DNA of 64,000 nucleotides from an uncultured Candidatus Peregrinibacteria bacterium (GTDB lineage Bacteria > Patescibacteriota > Gracilibacteria > Peribacterales > Peribacteraceae), in the NCBI GenBank assembly GCA_903825315.1, contig CAIKAD010000005.1:186001-250000 (forward strand), written 5' to 3'. A program made the translations under genes and the position numbers. Below, piece after piece: positions 4,816 to 14,220 of this stretch (its first letter is position 1; each line of letters opens with the position of its first letter). The notes under the pieces are model-generated. The model saw nothing but the letters and a program-made list of their open reading frames with translations, did not search any database and was not told the DNA's origin.

Positions 4816-6162
4816 ATGAAAGCGCTTTGGAATCGCCTCTTTCGCAAGAGGCACAGGAAGCTGGCAGACCGCCGGCAAACCCATGGCTACAAAAGCCTGG
4901 GAGTGGAAACCTTGGAGAGTAGGACTCTCCTCGCAGTGGCGCCGATCGCGCTAAATGCTCACTGCGGGAACCTGACTCTCACGGGGGGTGCAGGCCCCGA
5001 CAACCTGCGCATGGAAGTGGCGCCGGATCAGGCCAATGTGCTGAGGATTACCCTCAACGGGTCGGTGGCGACCTTCCAAACCAGTCAGATCCGCAACATC
5101 AGCGTCAAGCTGAACGGCGGGGACGACAAGATGGTTACGGAAGGGAACCTCTCTTGGCCCGGCCTGAAGAAGTTCACGATCTCCACGGATGGAGGGAACG
5201 ATGAGGTTTGGTTGAGTGCCACTAATGCCGCCGTCACAGTGAAGCTGGGCACCGGGAACGACAAGTTCTTCGCCACGTGCGAAGGTCTCGGTTCCCTTCG
5301 TATCAATGCCGACGGGGGAGACGACTTCCTCGATGCCCGTTGGTGGAGAGGGCCGGTGACGTTCGCGCCCGGAAAAGGCAATGACATCGCTATCGGCCCC
5401 ACGGCAGGGGCACAGGCGAAGTTCTTGCTTCAGGGCGACAACGGGTTTCATGACGAAGCCCGGGGACGTGCGACAGACAAGTTTTGCCTCGACTCGACAG
5501 ATTCGTTGACGTTCTGGCAGAACGTTTCCCTCCCAAGGGGGGTTGTCTACGATGTATCCGTCAGGACGCTCACCATCGACCTCGGAAAGGTTCCCAGTAG
5601 CTTCGGTTACTGGACCGATCCGGCGAACCGCCATCTGGTGGGGGTGTGTTGGGATGGGGCTTTCGGTCAGGAAGTGCAGATGTTCCAGGTCGATACGCTG
5701 GTCATCCGCTGCCCCAATTGGGAGAGCGAGGTCACCGTGGATGGGTTTGCAGGTAACGTCATCATCTACGGGAGTGATGCCTGCAACCACATCGTGACGT
5801 CGAACTGCGGGCCGGTCACCTTCTATGGTGGTCCGGGTGACACATGGGAGGGCTACTGCCCGCCCAAGGACATCTGGTACGGCAAGCCGAGTGATCCTCC
5901 TCCTGCAGGTCTTCAGGTGATCGATTCCTGGAACGACCAAACGGGGGTCGCGACGATTCAGGGGAACAAAGTGCGTCTCGAACGGGTCACGTACCCGGGC
6001 GTGGACGGTATCTTTTACCGCCTCTGGATCAATGACCAGCTGCGGCCTCTCGATCGCCGGGCCAACGGGCTCGTCGGTATTAGGGCGCACGAGGTCTTTA
6101 TCGACGCCGCGCTCGAAGCCGATCTCCGGGCGCACAATTGGCTCACGGTCGAGATCGTTTAA
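4816..6162 (+). CDS. Secreted protein with LEPR-XLL-like signal and RTX-like glycine/aspartate repeats
   Basis: The protein has 448 aa. A basic N-terminus (residues 1-25) is followed by VETLESRTLLAV at about 31-42, which matches the LEPR-XLL sorting/secretion signature (LE-x-R-x-LLA) known mainly from Planctomycetes surface proteins. Residues ~55-200 then contain repeated Gly/Asp turns of the calcium-binding RTX type: GGAGPDNL, NGGDDKM, DGGNDEV, GTGNDKF, DGGDDFL, GKGNDI. The remainder looks like a beta-rich domain with scattered Cys and Trp that I do not recognise. It is probably exported and surface-bound; the ligand is unknown. It is monocistronic, follows an AT-rich spacer, has a strong Shine-Dalgarno site and ends at a clear terminator. 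Signal plus context suggest horizontal gain. Confidence 0.75.
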   Translation: MKALWNRLFRKRHRKLADRRQTHGYKSLGVETLESRTLLAVAPIALNAHCGNLTLTGGAGPDNLRMEVAPDQANVLRITLNGSVATFQTSQIRNISVKLNGGDDKMVTEGNLSWPGLKKFTISTDGGNDEVWLSATNAAVTVKLGTGNDKFFATCEGLGSLRINADGGDDFLDARWWRGPVTFAPGKGNDIAIGPTAGAQAKFLLQGDNGFHDEARGRATDKFCLDSTDSLTFWQNVSLPRGVVYDVSVRTLTIDLGKVPSSFGYWTDPANRHLVGVCWDGAFGQEVQMFQVDTLVIRCPNWESEVTVDGFAGNVIIYGSDACNHIVTSNCGPVTFYGGPGDTWEGYCPPKDIWYGKPSDPPPAGLQVIDSWNDQTGVATIQGNKVRLERVTYPGVDGIFYRLWINDQLRPLDRRANGLVGIRAHEVFIDAALEADLRAHNWLTVEIV

Positions 6163-6193: not shown

Positions 6194-6229
6194 AAACCGC
6201 CCACTCCTTTAGGGAGTAGGGCGGTTTTT
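6194..6229. terminator. Bidirectional intrinsic terminator between convergent genes
   Basis: The arms AAACCGCCC + ACTCC and GGAGT + GGGCGGTTT pair around a 5-nt loop, with one bulged A in the 3' arm. TTTTT follows on the plus strand and a TTTCTTT-like run on the minus strand. It sits between the LEPR-XLL gene and the 3' end of the minus-strand five-gene operon and can serve both. Confidence 0.88.
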
Positions 6230-6336
6230 CGTGCTCTTGTTTTTCATCGGCAGCTGCATGCCGTTGTCTTTTATTGGAGGGGAATCTGGGAAAACTGCTA
6301 TTCAATATACGAGATACCAGATTCAAAAATTCCCCA

Positions 6337-7788
6337 TCATAATTGGTCTTGCGGCACCCCCGACTGCGCGGAGCACTTCTGCTTAAGATCCTTGATTTTC
6401 TGGTCCCGCTCGTCCTGTGTCGCATCATCCGGGAGGTCGGCAACGCCGCGCGTGTAGGGGAAGCAGTCATCCGCGCTGATGATGTTCATTACGCGTTCCA
6501 GCGTGGGATTGCAGTCGCGGTTCATGCAGCTGCGGCGCAGGAAGAACGTGGCGTCGCGCACCATATCGCGGAGGCTGCGGTCGTCGCTCTTCTTGTCTCC
6601 CTGGTCCGGGTGGATATCCTGCACCAGTCGCGAGAACGTGCCGATGGCCTGCGTGAGCGGGGAGAAGGCCTCATCAATGCCCTGCGATTCCACGATGCCG
6701 ATGCGGATGAGGGCGTTGCCCTTTACTTGCTGCGTGTTGAATTCCTGGAAGTCGCGGGCAAGTTCGGGGTTAAAGACAGAGAGCCCGAGGTTCCATGTGA
6801 AAGGGCTTTGAGGCTGGAAGGGAGAGACGCGCAGGAGCTCCAGGTGGAGCAAGAGGCGGACCATTGTGAGGAAGCGAGCGCCGGGCGCGGCCAGAAAGTG
6901 GCCAGCAGACCACGTGCGGAGGCTGGGCGGCCACTCTTCGATGCATCCTTCCACCTGCTCCGGGGCGGGAGGCGGGGTTTCACCGGGGAGGCGTACCTCA
7001 TTGAGCTTGTCCAAAAGCTTCTGGAGTGCTTCCTGCTCTGCCTGAGTGGCTTCCACGCCCTTGTCCATGTCTCCGCCAAATTCCGACTGGAGCTGGGAGA
7101 GGGCGGTGGAGATGTCGTCCACCGAGCAGCCGGGAGAACCTTCCAGGCCCGTCTCCATATAGAGGGTGCTGAAGGGGCAGAGCTTTTCATCAACAATCCC
7201 GTCCGCCGTATCCTTCGTATCAAAGCTGAGGGGAGTGTTCCATTCCTGGTCCACATATCCGGGGCGTGTCCCTCCTCCTTCCAGCACCTTCAGGCGCTGG
7301 TTGAGGAAGTCGTACACATTCCCCAGTTGGCGTACGGCGACGGAATCTGTACGGTCGCGTGCCGTCTTGATCTCTCCGCGCGTCTTCTCCATTTCGTGAA
7401 GAATGAGCATGACATCGGCATACTGGCAGGCTGTCATGCCGGGAAGACGTTGCTGCTCTGCCGTGCGTGTTACGTCCGAATCGCGCGTGGAGAAGATGTC
7501 GGACATGCCGTATTGGAGCCAGTGCCACACGTCGCTCGGCTGCCAAGACTCGCTTTTGCCTTCCCCCAGGTTCGCGGAGCGGGCGCGCTCAATGACGCGA
7601 CGGGTGTAGTTGGTGAGGCCGGGGGCGGCAAACGCTTGTGGCGTGACAGCGAAGGAGCTACACAGCACACAAAGTGAAATCCCAAGCACCAATTTCCAAT
7701 AATCAACACGTCCGACACCCTGAACGTTTTGGTTATTGGTGCTTGGGATTTGGTCATTTGCCGATGAGCGGAGGGAGAGTGTGAACAT
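6337..7788 (-). CDS. Exported protein of unknown function (operon gene 5 of 5)
   Basis: This 483-aa protein is not recognised. A hydrophobic segment (LVLGISLCVLCSSFAV, then AFAAPG) at about residues 33-56 looks like a signal peptide with an Ala-x-Ala cleavage site, preceded by an unusually long polar N-terminus. Eight Cys lie after it, which would suit disulfides outside the membrane. A Gln/Glu-rich helical middle and a charged C-terminus follow. The N-terminal 35 codons overlap a perfect 17-bp inverted repeat (7677-7751), so the ATG at 7788 is uncertain; a start near the signal peptide at about 7690 using TTG or GTG is possible. It is the last gene of the operon, 10 bp after gene 4. Confidence 0.7.
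   Translation of the reverse strand: MFTLSLRSSANDQIPSTNNQNVQGVGRVDYWKLVLGISLCVLCSSFAVTPQAFAAPGLTNYTRRVIERARSANLGEGKSESWQPSDVWHWLQYGMSDIFSTRDSDVTRTAEQQRLPGMTACQYADVMLILHEMEKTRGEIKTARDRTDSVAVRQLGNVYDFLNQRLKVLEGGGTRPGYVDQEWNTPLSFDTKDTADGIVDEKLCPFSTLYMETGLEGSPGCSVDDISTALSQLQSEFGGDMDKGVEATQAEQEALQKLLDKLNEVRLPGETPPPAPEQVEGCIEEWPPSLRTWSAGHFLAAPGARFLTMVRLLLHLELLRVSPFQPQSPFTWNLGLSVFNPELARDFQEFNTQQVKGNALIRIGIVESQGIDEAFSPLTQAIGTFSRLVQDIHPDQGDKKSDDRSLRDMVRDATFFLRRSCMNRDCNPTLERVMNIISADDCFPYTRGVADLPDDATQDERDQKIKDLKQKCSAQSGVPQDQL
7677..7751. repeat. Perfect 17-bp inverted repeat (TTGGTGCTTGGGATTT type) at a gene start
   Basis: AAATCCCAAGCACCAAT at 7677-7693 is the exact reverse complement of 7735-7751. The 41-nt loop itself holds related words (CCAATAATC, GGTTATTGG). 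It overlaps the 5' coding end of the neighbouring exported protein. A single arm of a similar word (ATTGGTTATTTGGGAT) lies near 25,715. Confidence 0.85.
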
Positions 7789-7798
7789 GAGGGGTTAC

Positions 7799-9676
7799 TC
7801 AGTGGACATTGGCATCGCAGACATCCAGGTCATCCTTCGGGTTCAATGGACACATCACAGTGGGGAAGACATCTTGCGCCATGCGCTTGAGCATCTCCAC
7901 CGCAGAGCCGATGGTCCCTTCCAGCGAGGCACTGATGCGGCGCAGGTACTCGCGGTACAGCGCGGTTCCTGCGTCCATGCCCATACCTTCCATGGCGTCC
8001 CGCTGGTCGACTTCGGCGCGCGTATTGAGTTCGCGGACAAACGTGAGGGCGGCGATGCCGGGATTGGCATTGGATAGGCCGAGGGAATCCGTCCCCGTGA
8101 GTTGGCAGATGCCGGTGGGCGAAAGGGGTGGCCTGGCGCGTTGCTGGCAGTATTCGATGAGGAGTTCCTTCATGCTCTCGCCTGGGTTATTGACGGGGAA
8201 GACGGGGAGAGTGAGAGTGACGGGGACCTTGATGGGTTCTTCCGGTTGGGTCTCCCGGCATTCTGGCCAGGAGAGAAAAGTTTCCTGTGCCACGAGCGGC
8301 TCCCGCCCCGGCAGGAGTGAGTGGGAGAAGGCGCGTTCGGCGCACTCCCGAATAAAGCATGTGTGGCCAAGGATGGTATAAGGATAGGCGGCTTGTTCAC
8401 CGGGAGAGCAGGGGGCGAGGCTACCGGTTGCCGTTCCGTGTTCGCGCATGTCCCTGCAGATGTCCCGTGCGCTGGTATTGGAAGAATCGGAAGATGAGGA
8501 GCTGGAGGCGGGCGGCGAGCAATCGGTGAGGATGATGGTGTGTTCCTCCGGGTCCGGCGCTTCCTCTGCGCATTGGGCTGCATCATTCCGGCCGCTACGC
8601 CCACGGCAGAGGTACCCCTGTCGGCCGCTCAGTGTTTCGCACAGACCGCCTCCGCCCTTGATGACAATGGCGCTGTCCTCCTGCTTCTCGGGCGCCGGCG
8701 GATAGACGCCGCCCAGAATAAGAGTTCCGTCCTCTTGCGTGAGGGAGGGGAAGATGGGGTCGAGAGGCAGGTTCCAGCGGAAGCCTGCATCCTTTTTGGG
8801 CAGAGGATGTTCGTTGTTGTCCAGGCTCGTGTCGCGCACGTGCACCCATGCCACCAAGTCGTCACGTAGCGGGAGGAGGGACACGGCTGCTTCGCCTGGG
8901 TGGAGGGGCGGGTCGATGCGGCTTTCCACCTGGTCCCGCAGGTCCGTTAGATGGTTTTCCAGATTCTCATATCTTTTGAAGAGGAGCTTGCGCTCCGTTT
9001 GGGGACCGCTCTCCCCGTCCGGATTCTCATCACTGCTCATGTTTTGCACAAAGTCTAGGCCGTTCTGGTACCGCCACGCCGCAGCATTGGCCTGGTCCGG
9101 AGGCAGTGCATCCAGATCATTCCGGATGTCGTCGAGGAGGCTATTGAGGCTGTCATCTTCCGGAGGTGGAATGTAGCGAAGGAGGCTAGCGTCCGTCACT
9201 CCCGCTTCTGCACGGATACCCCATATCTGCAGGGTATCCGCGTACGCCGTTGTCAGTGCTCCCGGCTGCAGGCTAAAGGCACTGATGGGATCCTCGTATC
9301 CGGAGACGGCTGCCTGGAGACGGCGGCCCATCCGCAGCACTTCCATCTCGCGTTGTGCGATCTTCCGGAGTTCCCGTTCCACATCCATGCAGGCCGTGGG
9401 TGTCCATTCCGGGTGGCTCGGGCAAAGGATGCCAATGAGCGGAGACCGCATGACTGTAGTCACGTCGTTTGCGGTGAGAGAGAGGGAGACGGAATCGTCG
9501 AGTGACGGCACGCCGGATTTGTTCAGTGCTTGCGCGGCAAAGTTCGCAATGTCCTGCCGTGCGTCCTTTTCCTCCATCACGCGCTGTTCCACCCGGTCGA
9601 AGAGCGACTGCCCAGCTATGGCTCCTACGGGGAGCAGGAGAAGCGGGAAGCCGATGAGAAGGAGAGAATGTCTCAT
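7799..9676 (-). CDS. Exported Cys-rich protein of unknown function (operon gene 4 of 5)
   Basis: The protein has 625 aa. The start at 9676 is fixed by an ATGA overlap with the stop of gene 3 (ATG 9674-9676, TGA 9673-9675), which implies translational coupling. Residues 1-22 are a clean signal peptide (LLLIGFPLLLLPVGAIAG). A helical, charged N-terminal half, a central region with a long Ser run (about residues 380-390) and roughly 15 Cys spread over the mature chain follow. No known domain could be recognised. Secretion plus many Cys suggests a disulfide-stabilised envelope protein. It is probably a partner of the other four products, since all are exported and the gene order is compact. Confidence 0.75.
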   Translation of the reverse strand: MRHSLLLIGFPLLLLPVGAIAGQSLFDRVEQRVMEEKDARQDIANFAAQALNKSGVPSLDDSVSLSLTANDVTTVMRSPLIGILCPSHPEWTPTACMDVERELRKIAQREMEVLRMGRRLQAAVSGYEDPISAFSLQPGALTTAYADTLQIWGIRAEAGVTDASLLRYIPPPEDDSLNSLLDDIRNDLDALPPDQANAAAWRYQNGLDFVQNMSSDENPDGESGPQTERKLLFKRYENLENHLTDLRDQVESRIDPPLHPGEAAVSLLPLRDDLVAWVHVRDTSLDNNEHPLPKKDAGFRWNLPLDPIFPSLTQEDGTLILGGVYPPAPEKQEDSAIVIKGGGGLCETLSGRQGYLCRGRSGRNDAAQCAEEAPDPEEHTIILTDCSPPASSSSSSDSSNTSARDICRDMREHGTATGSLAPCSPGEQAAYPYTILGHTCFIRECAERAFSHSLLPGREPLVAQETFLSWPECRETQPEEPIKVPVTLTLPVFPVNNPGESMKELLIEYCQQRARPPLSPTGICQLTGTDSLGLSNANPGIAALTFVRELNTRAEVDQRDAMEGMGMDAGTALYREYLRRISASLEGTIGSAVEMLKRMAQDVFPTVMCPLNPKDDLDVCDANVH

Positions 9677-10464
9677 TCGGAAAGTTGACGGAGTGGGCCG
9701 AGAGCATCCCATGTGCGTACGGGGGTGCAGGCGGAGGCTTCCCCCAGCAAGCCGAGAATATTGCGGAGGTCTTTGGAGGCGCGGTTGAAACACGTAAAGA
9801 CGCGGTTGAGAGGATCCAGTTTCCGTTCCCCCATGAGGAGCAGGAGCGAGCGGCGTACGGTCTCGGTGGCAATGCCCAGTTGGCTATCGCTCTGGTCAAA
9901 CCATTCAGTGTTCTGCTCCAGGAAGTCAAAGAGGGAGAGCGGTTGGCCCTTCTGTTGCGCATACAGTGCCATGTCATAGGGGAGCACTACCCCCTTCGCC
10001 TTGAGTGCGCACCCGTATGTTTCCAGGTAATCGAGGATGACGGCGGGAGTGTCGCTGGAGTAGAGCGGATCGTGGTCTCGCCATAGGGGTAATTTGGCAG
10101 CGAGGTCCTTGAGCTGTTGGGACGCGGGCATGCGCGCATTGTCGGTGCAGGAGAGCTGAGTGTTTACTGTTTCGGCATCGATGACACCCTTTACCGTGTC
10201 GCGGAAGATTTGCTGCCACTGGAGCGCCTTGGGGTCGCCGGGATCATCGGGGAACAGTTCGGGGGCAGACTGGCAGGGCGGGAGACCAGGGAAGACGGAA
10301 GTCGCGGAATCCTCGAGCTGCACGAGGGATGCCTGCATTGGGCGGCTATGCGTGAGAGGGAAGGCGACGATGATGGTCACCAGTGCGAGGGGCAGCAGTA
10401 TTGCCGTCAGGCGCGGGGAGCGGGAGCGGGAAGGCCGATGGTGGAAGTCCGGGGGTTTGGGCAT
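9673..10464 (-). CDS. Exported or membrane-anchored protein of unknown function (operon gene 3 of 5)
   Basis: The protein has 263 aa when started at ATG 10464, 1 nt after the TGA of gene 2; an in-frame codon at 10485 would add only seven residues. A very basic N-terminus (HHRPSRSRSPR) is followed by one hydrophobic segment (LTAILLPLALVTIIVAF) at about residues 20-37, which could be an uncleaved anchor. The outside part is about 220 residues with five Cys and a mostly helical look. No family is recognised. It overlaps gene 4 by an ATGA junction. Confidence 0.72.
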   Translation of the reverse strand: MPKPPDFHHRPSRSRSPRLTAILLPLALVTIIVAFPLTHSRPMQASLVQLEDSATSVFPGLPPCQSAPELFPDDPGDPKALQWQQIFRDTVKGVIDAETVNTQLSCTDNARMPASQQLKDLAAKLPLWRDHDPLYSSDTPAVILDYLETYGCALKAKGVVLPYDMALYAQQKGQPLSLFDFLEQNTEWFDQSDSQLGIATETVRRSLLLLMGERKLDPLNRVFTCFNRASKDLRNILGLLGEASACTPVRTWDALGPLRQLSE

Positions 10465-10465
10465 A

Positions 10466-11338
10466 TCACTGGTCTTTCTGCGCACAGAAAGGCAGGAAGC
10501 AGGGAGAGGCGGTCCATTGCAGGAAGAAGTTGCTCACCTGACGGATGGGCGTGAGGAAGGGGAAGCGCACAGAATTGAGGAACGGTTCCAGATATCCGGC
10601 GAACTGGCGGAGCGTGCGATGCGCGGCATCCTGGTGGGCGAGGAACAGAAGTTGGGAACCCTGGTAGCGGACCAGTTCCGTTGCCAGTGACTGACATTCG
10701 TCCGCGAGGGTGGCAAAGTCGGTGAACGACATAATGGCTGAGGGCCTGCAGGTGGAAAATTCTTTCAGTTCTATTTCCCGGCAGCCGGGTAGCCGGACGG
10801 TTACGGACGAGGCCGGCGAGGCGGAGCTTCCCATGCCGCTCCGGATCGCCATGGCCACTGCTTCGCAGACGCTTTGGACGCGGCACTGGAAGCCGCGGTA
10901 GCCCTGCAGGATGGGGGGGATGATGTCGGAGGTGAGGGCACGTTGCGCTTCCAAAAGGCCTGGATGGATGGCGGAGCGGGAGGAGGAAGATCCTTCTACA
11001 GCCGGGAGGGCGTCAAACGCCGTGCGGTTGTCCATGTCATCATCGGAAATCGCGTCCTCACTTACCGCGGGCGAAACCCATCGGTCATTCTCCGTCTTGA
11101 TCCACGTGAAACCTTTGTTGTCCACGCGCGTCGCGCCCGTCCGCTCATCCGATGCCTTCTGTACTCCTACAAGGATCGACTCAAAGAGGAAGCGCTCGCG
11201 GTTGAGGGCAGCATTGAAACTGCTGCGGCAGAGCGTGCCGCCGTCTGCCGGCGCGGAGGAGGAGCTCGCCGATGCTGCGAAACACTGCATGGGAAGCAGG
11301 AGCAGCAACAGGGCCAACGGAAAGGCGCGCAGGTTCAT
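10466..11338 (-). CDS. Exported protein of unknown function (operon gene 2 of 5)
   Basis: The protein has 290 aa. The signal peptide at residues 1-21 (FPLALLLLLLPMQCFAAS) could be cleaved after FAA. A short Ser run follows, then a mixed domain with eight Cys in the mature part. The start codon overlaps the stop of gene 1 (ATG 11336-11338, TGA 11335-11337), which supports coupled translation. No family is recognised. A helical C-terminal half (about residues 190-270) suggests protein contacts, but that is only an impression. Confidence 0.73.
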   Translation of the reverse strand: MNLRAFPLALLLLLLPMQCFAASASSSSAPADGGTLCRSSFNAALNRERFLFESILVGVQKASDERTGATRVDNKGFTWIKTENDRWVSPAVSEDAISDDDMDNRTAFDALPAVEGSSSSRSAIHPGLLEAQRALTSDIIPPILQGYRGFQCRVQSVCEAVAMAIRSGMGSSASPASSVTVRLPGCREIELKEFSTCRPSAIMSFTDFATLADECQSLATELVRYQGSQLLFLAHQDAAHRTLRQFAGYLEPFLNSVRFPFLTPIRQVSNFFLQWTASPCFLPFCAQKDQ

Positions 11339-14220
11339 GGTGCGGAAGAACTGGAGGAGTTTGGGGTGAAGAGGGGCACGTCCCGCGGGACGGGGTAGGA
11401 TTCAAAGAGGCGGTCGTCCTTTTCCTCAAAGAGCGGAACATCGCTCCCCTGCTGAATGAGCTTGCCGTCGTCATCGAGTATCTGCTGTCGCATCTGCAGG
11501 CGCAGAGGGTCGTAGGCATCGCCGTTCCCTTCAGACTCCTTGGGCAGCGTTACGCGCAGCCCCCTCTTGAGGAGCTGTTCCTGCAGGAGGCACTGGTCAT
11601 CCCCTGCCGGGCACTGGGAGGAAGGTCCTAGGGGATACAGCGGCGGAGGTACCGGCGGTTTATTAAAATCCAGAAATGCTCCGATGGGAGACCAGATGCG
11701 CATGAACACGTTCCACAATTTGGTTTCCGGAAAGACGCATCCGTCGCTTCCCGGATTGGGGCAGGAGAAATCTTCATGCTGTTCCTCCGTCCACAGGTTG
11801 TCATCGTACTGCTGGCGCACATCCGAGAGCTGGTTGGCCAGATCGTCGAATTTGTTCGCAAGCTCCTCGTAATTGAGGGGTATCTCGGGCGTTGGCTCCG
11901 TTTCGTATTCCTTGCTGATGTCTATGGGATCCGTGGAAAGCTCGGGGAGCTCGGGCACGGGCGGAAGGTCCGGAAGAGGGTCGGGATGAGGGAGGGGCGG
12001 AAGCGGGAGCTTGATAGCCACCTGTACCACGCGGAAGACGGGGACGCGGATGGCGGCGGCCTCCTCTGCACCCTCAATAAAAACGTTGCTGAAGTCGAAG
12101 ACGAGGTGGCGCGGAGTCTCCGGTGGGATTTCCGGCGGCTCAAAATTATCCTGCTTTTCCAGCCAAGGCAGGAAAGCGGAAGTCATGTCGTTCTTGCAAT
12201 ACTGCTGGTTGAGTTGGACGATATTCGTGAGTTTCTCCTTCAGGTTCCTCCAGGAACCCACCAGGCGCTGTACGGCATCCTGGCTTATCATAGCTTGCTG
12301 ATAGGGGGCGAGGCGGGATGCTACCCACTCGTCCACGGCTTGGCTCAATTCCTCCCTTCGCGTGAGGGCGGCAGCGAGAGCGGAGGGCAGAGCGGCGCGC
12401 ATCTTGCGGTAGTCCTGCATTTGCCGGCGGTACTCCTGGAGTTTTGCGATGATTGCGTCCGTGCCCGTGGTATTAAGAGAAGGGTTGAGCTCTCCTTCCT
12501 TCTTCCATCCTTCCCATGCTTCGATAGCGGACTGTAGCTCCGTTTCCGAAAGGAGGGGGACAACCACGGGGATCGGTTCCTCGCGGATGCGGGAGAAGAT
12601 GGCATGGCGCAGGACCTCGCGCACTGCCTCAATGAGGCCCGGCCGCAGGGGGACGGTGATATCCGTGAGGGGGGAAGGCTGGGCATCGGGATCTGTCGGA
12701 GGGAAGAGGAGGGCCAGCTCGTCCCGGGTTTTTACGGATGGAAGGATGAGCTGGATGGTGGGAGGAAGGCCTTCCATCCTCCGCTCGAGTGTATTCATGG
12801 CGGTGACATACTTGCCCTCCTGCGTCTCGCCGAGGATTCTCCCCGTCTCTGTCTCGGGGAGCGCGGGAGCGGAAAAGGTGCTGTCATTCTTATGAGCGGG
12901 GTCCAGCGTAAAGCCGCCTGCCTTGTGTTCTATGGAAGAGGAACTCTGCATGCGGCAGGTGCAAGTGCTTGCGCCGATGGCGCTTTCGCAAGCTTGGCCG
13001 GGAGGACAGGAGCCGCCGCCGCAACCGGGCCACGGTTGGGCGGTGCAGGGGCCAGCGGAGGAGGAAGATTCCTGCTTGTTCCACTCTTCATTCCCTTTCT
13101 CCATCTTCCGTGACGTGAGTTTGTACAATTGCAGGTCATCAGCGATGCAGGCGCGGTCACCGGGGTTGGAGGGATCCAGGTCCGCCTCCTTGTACCACTT
13201 GTAGCAGGCGAGATTAACCTCGATGTTCTTGTCATTCTCTTCCGTGGAGTTGGTCTGCGGGATGTCCGCCAGGGTGTGGGTGGCCACGTAACGGCGGTAG
13301 AAGGAGTCGTAGCGGGAGCCGTTGAGTGGGTCGTACTGCGGGTCCTTCACAGGTGACGGCACTTCCGGCGCGGAGCGGCACTCGCTCCCCTTACAGTCCG
13401 TGCAATTGGGATATTCTTTTTGCTCCTTTGTCCACAGCGCCTTGCACCAGTCAGCTGCGTTTTCTAGCGCAGGGCTGTCGCCGTCCCACACCCATCCGTA
13501 CCCCACGCGCAGGAGGCCCGACTGTTGCTCCTCCCAGTCTCCGGTGCACTCATACTTTTCGCCAAAGTACTCGCGCGTCTCCACAGTGGGGTCGCACTCG
13601 GGGGAACTCGCCGGACAAGAGTTGCAGTCCCCTGCCACCTCGTCGGTGCGGAACGATGTGGTTTCGCAGTGGTCGAACGTCCAATCCACAACGTTTCCGT
13701 CGTCATCAAAAACCGGAGCGTACACTGCCGTTTGCACGTCGCAGGCGGCGATGCGTTCTACGCTATACCGCATGTCTGCGTTCACAGCATCGCAGATGTT
13801 CTGGCATTGATTCGGATCCGTGCACCGGTTTTCGTTGTACTCGGGCAGATCACGGCTGCGGAAATCCTCACAATAGGGATTGTCATGGTACGCGGCGAAG
13901 GATTTGCCGTAGGCACCTTGAGGATACGGATTGTCCTCTGATGCTCCGGTGGACCGGTCATGCCATGTATCCGGCCGCAATGGCACACCGTTTACGGTGG
14001 TCATGTAATCAAGTTCATGTTCGTCCGTTATGCGAAAACCGCAATTTGCCTTATTGAGCTGGTCGGGAATATCGGCATTCACAATGCTCTTCATCGTGTC
14101 CGTATCCCGTCCTTCCGGAATCGTATAGAGATCTGCAAAAGCAGGAAGCGCCAGTACGCACCCCGCCAGGGCAACAATGCCCCACGCGAATCCCCTGTGG
14201 TGAGCGTAGAAAAAGCGCAC
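11335..14220 (-). CDS. Large exported Cys-rich protein of unknown function (operon gene 1 of 5)
   Basis: The protein has 961 aa with a GTG start; AGGGG stands about 7 nt upstream. A signal peptide covers residues ~1-30 (GIVALAGCVLALPAFA). Residues ~55-440 are rich in Cys, Asn, Trp and Tyr, with pairs such as CNSCPAS and CPPGQACES resembling small disulfide-rich modules. Residues ~450-700 are predicted helical and charged. A Pro/Leu-rich linker follows (LPLPPLPHPDPLPDLPP, about residue 760), then a shorter C-terminal region ending in a Ser run. It is the first gene of the operon and transcribed away from ssb. No homolog family is recognised; size and make-up suggest an extracellular scaffold or adhesin-like component. 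Confidence 0.75.
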   Translation of the reverse strand: MRFFYAHHRGFAWGIVALAGCVLALPAFADLYTIPEGRDTDTMKSIVNADIPDQLNKANCGFRITDEHELDYMTTVNGVPLRPDTWHDRSTGASEDNPYPQGAYGKSFAAYHDNPYCEDFRSRDLPEYNENRCTDPNQCQNICDAVNADMRYSVERIAACDVQTAVYAPVFDDDGNVVDWTFDHCETTSFRTDEVAGDCNSCPASSPECDPTVETREYFGEKYECTGDWEEQQSGLLRVGYGWVWDGDSPALENAADWCKALWTKEQKEYPNCTDCKGSECRSAPEVPSPVKDPQYDPLNGSRYDSFYRRYVATHTLADIPQTNSTEENDKNIEVNLACYKWYKEADLDPSNPGDRACIADDLQLYKLTSRKMEKGNEEWNKQESSSSAGPCTAQPWPGCGGGSCPPGQACESAIGASTCTCRMQSSSSIEHKAGGFTLDPAHKNDSTFSAPALPETETGRILGETQEGKYVTAMNTLERRMEGLPPTIQLILPSVKTRDELALLFPPTDPDAQPSPLTDITVPLRPGLIEAVREVLRHAIFSRIREEPIPVVVPLLSETELQSAIEAWEGWKKEGELNPSLNTTGTDAIIAKLQEYRRQMQDYRKMRAALPSALAAALTRREELSQAVDEWVASRLAPYQQAMISQDAVQRLVGSWRNLKEKLTNIVQLNQQYCKNDMTSAFLPWLEKQDNFEPPEIPPETPRHLVFDFSNVFIEGAEEAAAIRVPVFRVVQVAIKLPLPPLPHPDPLPDLPPVPELPELSTDPIDISKEYETEPTPEIPLNYEELANKFDDLANQLSDVRQQYDDNLWTEEQHEDFSCPNPGSDGCVFPETKLWNVFMRIWSPIGAFLDFNKPPVPPPLYPLGPSSQCPAGDDQCLLQEQLLKRGLRVTLPKESEGNGDAYDPLRLQMRQQILDDDGKLIQQGSDVPLFEEKDDRLFESYPVPRDVPLFTPNSSSSSAP

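Follow-up and report, generated by a model that had tools for sequence, protein, structure and literature searches.

We found that five adjacent genes (g1 to g5) in the 64,000-nucleotide stretch of DNA analysed here (the window) encode exported, cysteine-containing proteins whose gene order is the same in every complete locus of the family Ca. Peribacteraceae, and that the first of these genes, g1, has relatives throughout the class. We judge it probable, though with considerable reservation, that g1-g5 are the Peribacteraceae version of a class-wide envelope cassette which was ancestrally co-expressed with pili and would specify a surface or attachment complex. The class consists of tiny, uncultured, mostly host-dependent bacteria, and the accessible parts of earlier accounts describe giant or Cys-rich surface proteins in the clade (PMC8080830, PMC4736985). 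The set bears on how members of the class attach to other cells and exploit them; for their surface machinery, the searchable literature offers no more than the terms 'giant' or 'Cys-rich' proteins. In the literature open to search, which covers few subscription papers, we found no published description of the five-gene set.

The operon and its conservation in Ca. Peribacteraceae

The operon comprises the following features.

11335..14220, minus strand: g1, exported protein of 961 aa with a GTG start (open reading frame, conservation, profile, structure model)
10466..11338, minus strand: g2, exported protein of 290 aa with 8 invariant Cys (conservation, cross-family profile match)
9673..10464, minus strand: g3, membrane-anchored protein of 263 aa with 5 invariant Cys (conservation, profile match, hydrophobic segment)
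7799..9676, minus strand: g4, exported Cys-rich protein of 625 aa (conservation; metallopeptidase insert site of other genera)
6337..7788, minus strand: g5, exported protein of 483 aa with 8 invariant Cys (conservation, cross-family profile match)
6194..6231, unstranded: bidirectional intrinsic terminator after g5 (-29.1 kcal/mol, z -5.0)

The coordinates and lengths of these five exported, Cys-containing reading frames are correct as given in an earlier note on this DNA, which had also held all five genes to be translationally coupled. Reading the junctions from the sequence, we found coupling at g1/g2 (ATGA overlap, 11338-11335), g2/g3 (TGATATG, 10468-10462) and g3/g4 (ATGA, 9676-9673), but not at g4/g5, where a 10-nt gap (7798-7789) leaves no overlap. 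The many Cys residues that the note had remarked on were counted as 29 in g1, 9 in g2, 5 in g3, 15 in g4 and 10 in g5. A signal peptide or anchor on each protein is likewise borne out, as every chain has a single strongly hydrophobic segment, at its N-terminus, and none elsewhere; as judged by eye, the segment of g3 resembles an uncleaved anchor, and those of g1, g2, g4 and g5 resemble cleavable signal peptides. On inspection these N-termini carry ordinary Sec-like signals or an anchor, with no class III prepilin signal (FTLIE-type). The one terminator expected at the operon's end is a strong hairpin common to the operon and to a convergent gene (4816-6162, plus strand). The 448-aa product of that gene has a long basic leader and the motif LESRTLLA at its N-terminus, and this start resembles the planctomycete extracellular signal (PF07595, E 0.043, under the cut-off).

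A palindromic repeat element (window 7677-7751; 23-nt arms, 91% complementary) lies over the start of g5, and its arm sequence also occurs at five further sites in the genome. The hydrophobic stretch YWKLVLGISL at the core of the g5 signal peptide is encoded by the arm, and this signal peptide is unlike those of the three same-genus g5 proteins; it would seem that the repeat was co-opted as a signal sequence.

With g4 as the query, relatives came up in 55 of 115 genomes, every one in the window's family. The usual order there, established from the regions around 20 g4-bearing relatives and later extended, is gltX-murB-ssb-g1-g2-g3-g4-g5-dnaE, and iterated profiles detect all five genes in every complete family locus; the conservation of gene order which the note had proposed as a check is therefore present. 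Cys columns are invariant across the family in g2 (8 columns, 28/28), g3 (5 columns, 28/28) and g5 (8 columns, 30/30), and the alignment of the Cys-rich N-terminal part of g1 covers this family only. We found g2 in 62 of 74 family genomes. The cassette is missing from some near-complete, small genomes (for example G008, G011 and G045; also G026), which indicates that the set is not essential.

None of the five proteins has a match above chance in Pfam, NCBIfam or PHROGs, in agreement with the absence of a recognisable family noted earlier, and PDB sequence-profile searches with g1, g2, g4 and g5 gave no solved relative (best E 0.045, at chance level). No internal homology was found within g1 or within g4. 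The AlphaFold model of window g1 has a mean pLDDT of 51 and is confident only at approximately aa 470-800, and that of an insert-bearing g4 from a relative (L122) has a mean of 55, with the insert at approximately 80. Foldseek searches with both models returned nothing under E 1, and VIA structure comparison gave Z of at most 4.1, with zincins in the top rows for g4 yet below significance. The five-gene set contains no ATPase, pilin or secretin, as had been observed, and Pfam and NCBIfam hold no clear secretion, pilus or conjugation match for any window protein, the kind of match that the note had named as contrary to its reading. F-type mating-pair proteins likewise include Cys-rich exported proteins, and g1-g5 might on that ground be taken for genes of a conjugation or type IV secretion system or of a mobile element. 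We find this scarcely conceivable, as window proteins have no VirB/Tra family match in Pfam or NCBIfam and none in PHROGs, g2 (the sole protein compared) has no plasmid match, and the locus is fixed between core genes throughout the family.

Relatives across the class and the link to type IV pili

The class-wide conserved part of g1 is a core at approximately aa 455-850, composed of beta-strands and a long helical hairpin, with the motifs W..W, C675, FDFS and a Pro-rich LPDLP; alignment of the core across families retains the Cys and the FDFS-like and LPxLPDLP motifs. With a profile of this core, g1 was detected in 291 of 353 class genomes (205 of the 236 of good quality), a count that concerns g1 only, the full five-gene set being known from sampled loci. 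A sample of 287 genomes over the phylum gave 25 matches to the core, all within the class.

Weak out-of-family matches led to loci in which four genes of fitting size stand behind a giant one. In these other families g1 is giant (about 4,000-5,500 aa), and in Peribacteraceae it is short. The three giant g1 proteins examined have SLH and FG-GAP domains, and two of the three also have Ig-like Big_1/Invasin_D3 domains; TSP3 was detected in giant g1 as well, while in window g1 we detected neither an SLH domain nor a propeller. Positional profiles from other families match those of the window's family at 96% for g2-g2, 96% for g3-g3, 68% for g4-g4 and 95% for g5-g5, and off-diagonal pairs among g2-g5 reach a probability of at most 10.5%. 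Five-gene order and matching profiles are thus kept in the sampled other families that use the standard code, with a weak match for g4, which is the weakest link between families and rests partly on position. Seven TGA-recoded genomes (G089, G495, G555, G579, G113, G535 and G499; L262-L275) keep the giant g1 (roughly 4,000 aa in those retrieved from end to end), and g2-g5 were not found beside it in the adjoining sequence. The description of the set as having no family had overlooked relatives of two kinds: g1 proteins of giant size with SLH, Ig and FG-GAP domains, and g4 proteins with an M76-like metallopeptidase domain.

In other families the usual order is pilN-pilO-pilB/T-pilC-prepilin(s)-g1-g2-g3-g4-g5, and prepilin motifs (FTLIELLIV) adjoin g1. 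Of 20 sampled other-family genomes, 16 have PilC no more than 20 kb upstream of the g1 core; it is upstream also in G381, G583 and G613 but not in G075, giving 19 of 24 sampled other-family loci. The upstream genes were checked in Pfam as T2SSE, T2SSF and (weakly) PilO. Because the same five genes stand directly behind a type IV pilus cluster in most other families, the set is linked to a known system. The earlier suggestion of an envelope apparatus that is not an evident standard secretion system holds for a conserved envelope or extracellular set, and is incomplete in leaving out the link to pili. Judged from its spread over families, the pilus linkage is probably ancestral.

In the window's family the cassette lies away from pilus genes, between ssb/murB and dnaE; the pilus loci of the window genome are at about 128-139 kb of contig C5 and about 187 kb of contig C1, the nearest being about 55 kb from the cassette. 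In the window genome a PilC-like protein of 720 aa (G000:C5:129590-131752; L055:9590-11752) has two T2SSF domains; its gene adjoins those of a PilB-like ATPase of 595 aa and a protein of 901 aa. By hand count, with PilC scored as PF00482, 48 family genomes have both cassette and PilC, 16 the cassette without PilC, five PilC without the cassette and five neither, which is a weak association (Fisher P = 0.13). Among the 16 genomes with the cassette and no PilC, 11 are at least 90% complete, including the same-genus G002 (10 contigs). Strict dependence of the cassette on pili in this family is unlikely, and was rejected on account of these 11 good-quality relatives. All 11 have at least one T2SSE-family ATPase match, in most of about 370-400 aa and hence PilT-sized. 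The cassette thus persists where the pilus platform has been lost, and in the window's family it cannot safely be labelled a 'pilus component'.

These data bear on whether the cassette is a true type IV pilus component in general, with g1 as a PilY1-like priming or tip adhesin and g2-g5 as accessory partners for assembly or function. The frequent presence upstream of PilC, usually with pilN/O/B and prepilins, is consistent with such a role, as are the FG-GAP propeller-type repeats of giant g1, PilY1 likewise bearing a beta-propeller (PMC12206443). We nevertheless consider it doubtful, given the eleven PilC-less relatives, the SLH wall-anchoring domains of giant g1, which would be odd at a pilus tip, and the absence of pilin and PilY1 family matches (for PilY1, in Pfam and NCBIfam with window g1 and in Pfam with three giant g1 proteins, of which one is complete). 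The SLH domains, the near-universal presence of g1 in the class, retention of the cassette without PilC and a family locus among core genes (gltX, murB, ssb, dnaE) would also suit a housekeeping wall or S-layer set, that is, a lattice or cross-linking complex for which pili are mere operon-mates and in which attachment is not involved. This we regard as unlikely, because the set is lost from the near-complete genomes named above, and its variable modules (the metallopeptidase; 10 DUF4215 repeats in the g4 of G042) look like surface diversification.

Proposed complex and comparison with known systems

An exported, disulfide-rich set that occurs class-wide, mostly behind pilus genes, suggests that an attachment structure is probably built on the cell surface, and from this conservation and context we infer a mechanism. 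The five proteins would be disulfide-folded outside the membrane and joined in a single complex on or within the wall or S-layer of the cell, with g3 as anchor and the helical-hairpin and Pro-rich core of g1 as organiser and carrier of outward-facing binding modules. Ancestrally co-expressed with type IV pili, it would plausibly be a wall-located docking or adhesin assembly, a wall-associated complex used in attachment, which holds a prey or host cell once the pilus has made contact. In Peribacteraceae the cassette would have been uncoupled from the pilus locus and the giant modules of g1 lost, and in one clade an extracellular zinc-metallopeptidase domain would have been added to g4. The PilQ secretin is missing from CPR (PMC6744442), and a bolder version of the proposal, which is possible but which we would not expect, makes the disulfide-bonded five-protein complex a class-specific organelle that replaces the missing secretin or tip apparatus and that grips a host or prey cell independently of pili in Peribacteraceae.

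The cassette provides five named proteins to test and ties giant surface proteins to a defined set of partners. Being widespread and apparently class-restricted, it may serve as a marker for the class, and the one family in which it is separated from pili provides a natural experiment on the complex's own role.

Type IV pili, fibres that grapple and retract, are tied to host binding in Saccharibacteria, another CPR class (PMC12206443, PMC11665869). Saccharibacterial pili with the propeller-bearing minor pilin PilX2 (PMC12206443), and PilY1, resemble the cassette in placing a large exported binding protein beside pilus assembly genes and in their propeller-type repeats, which occur here in the giant g1 of other families. 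They differ in that g1 has no pilin N-terminus, giant g1 has SLH domains, window g1 has no detected propeller or SLH, and the cassette includes four conserved Cys-containing partners and persists without PilC. In the same wider clade, Vampirococcus lugosii has adhesion-type giant surface proteins of 1,392-4,163 aa alongside type IV pili, according to the accessible parts of its description (PMC8080830), and one of them could be a candidate g1 orthologue; those parts present them as single large proteins and do not mention a five-gene set. For Ca. Peribacter, a role in attachment has been proposed for twenty large extracellular proteins rich in Cys, which average 1,655 aa and include a 14-gene cluster with 7.2% Cys (PMC4736985). 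They are exported, Cys-rich and from the same family, whereas g1-g5 are smaller, lower in Cys and in conserved operon order.

The metallopeptidase insert of g4

Many family g4 proteins have approximately 200 extra residues with the pattern HELxHAQQ-C-(n)-CC..E..AY..C, of the HExxH metallopeptidase type. The insert is present in about half of family g4 proteins, in one clade, with HExxH present in 13 relatives and degenerate in three. Its best Pfam matches are Peptidase_M76 (four members, best E 4.9e-4) and DUF6782, and its three best, weak structural neighbours are the zincins PprI, CapP and 6mdw (Z 3.6-4.1). Neither the insert nor HExxH occurs in window g4 or its genus, in a second deep lineage or in any of the 23 g4 proteins from other families; in the 625-aa window g4 the insert site falls between C407 and C423. 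This distribution fits one gain, within a single clade, and subsequent losses, four changes in all, on a tree whose root order is not firm.

Peptidase M76 (ATP23) and DUF6782 share the HExxH...C...CC..E motif with these g4 relatives. ATP23 is mitochondrial, whereas the g4 domain is inserted into a protein that is exported, and is missing in the window. The presence of the insert in about half of the family would accord with an extracellular proteolytic complex, in which g4 is a secreted M76-like metallopeptidase that the other proteins deliver or hold. However, an insert so patchy and partly degenerate is better seen as an add-on than as the core function; a proteolytic complex is accordingly very improbable, and disfavoured for window g4. 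The g4 protein of G042 (L059:7507-15375) is 2,623 aa long and contains 259 Cys and 10 DUF4215 repeats, which indicates that g4 is able to carry large binding modules.
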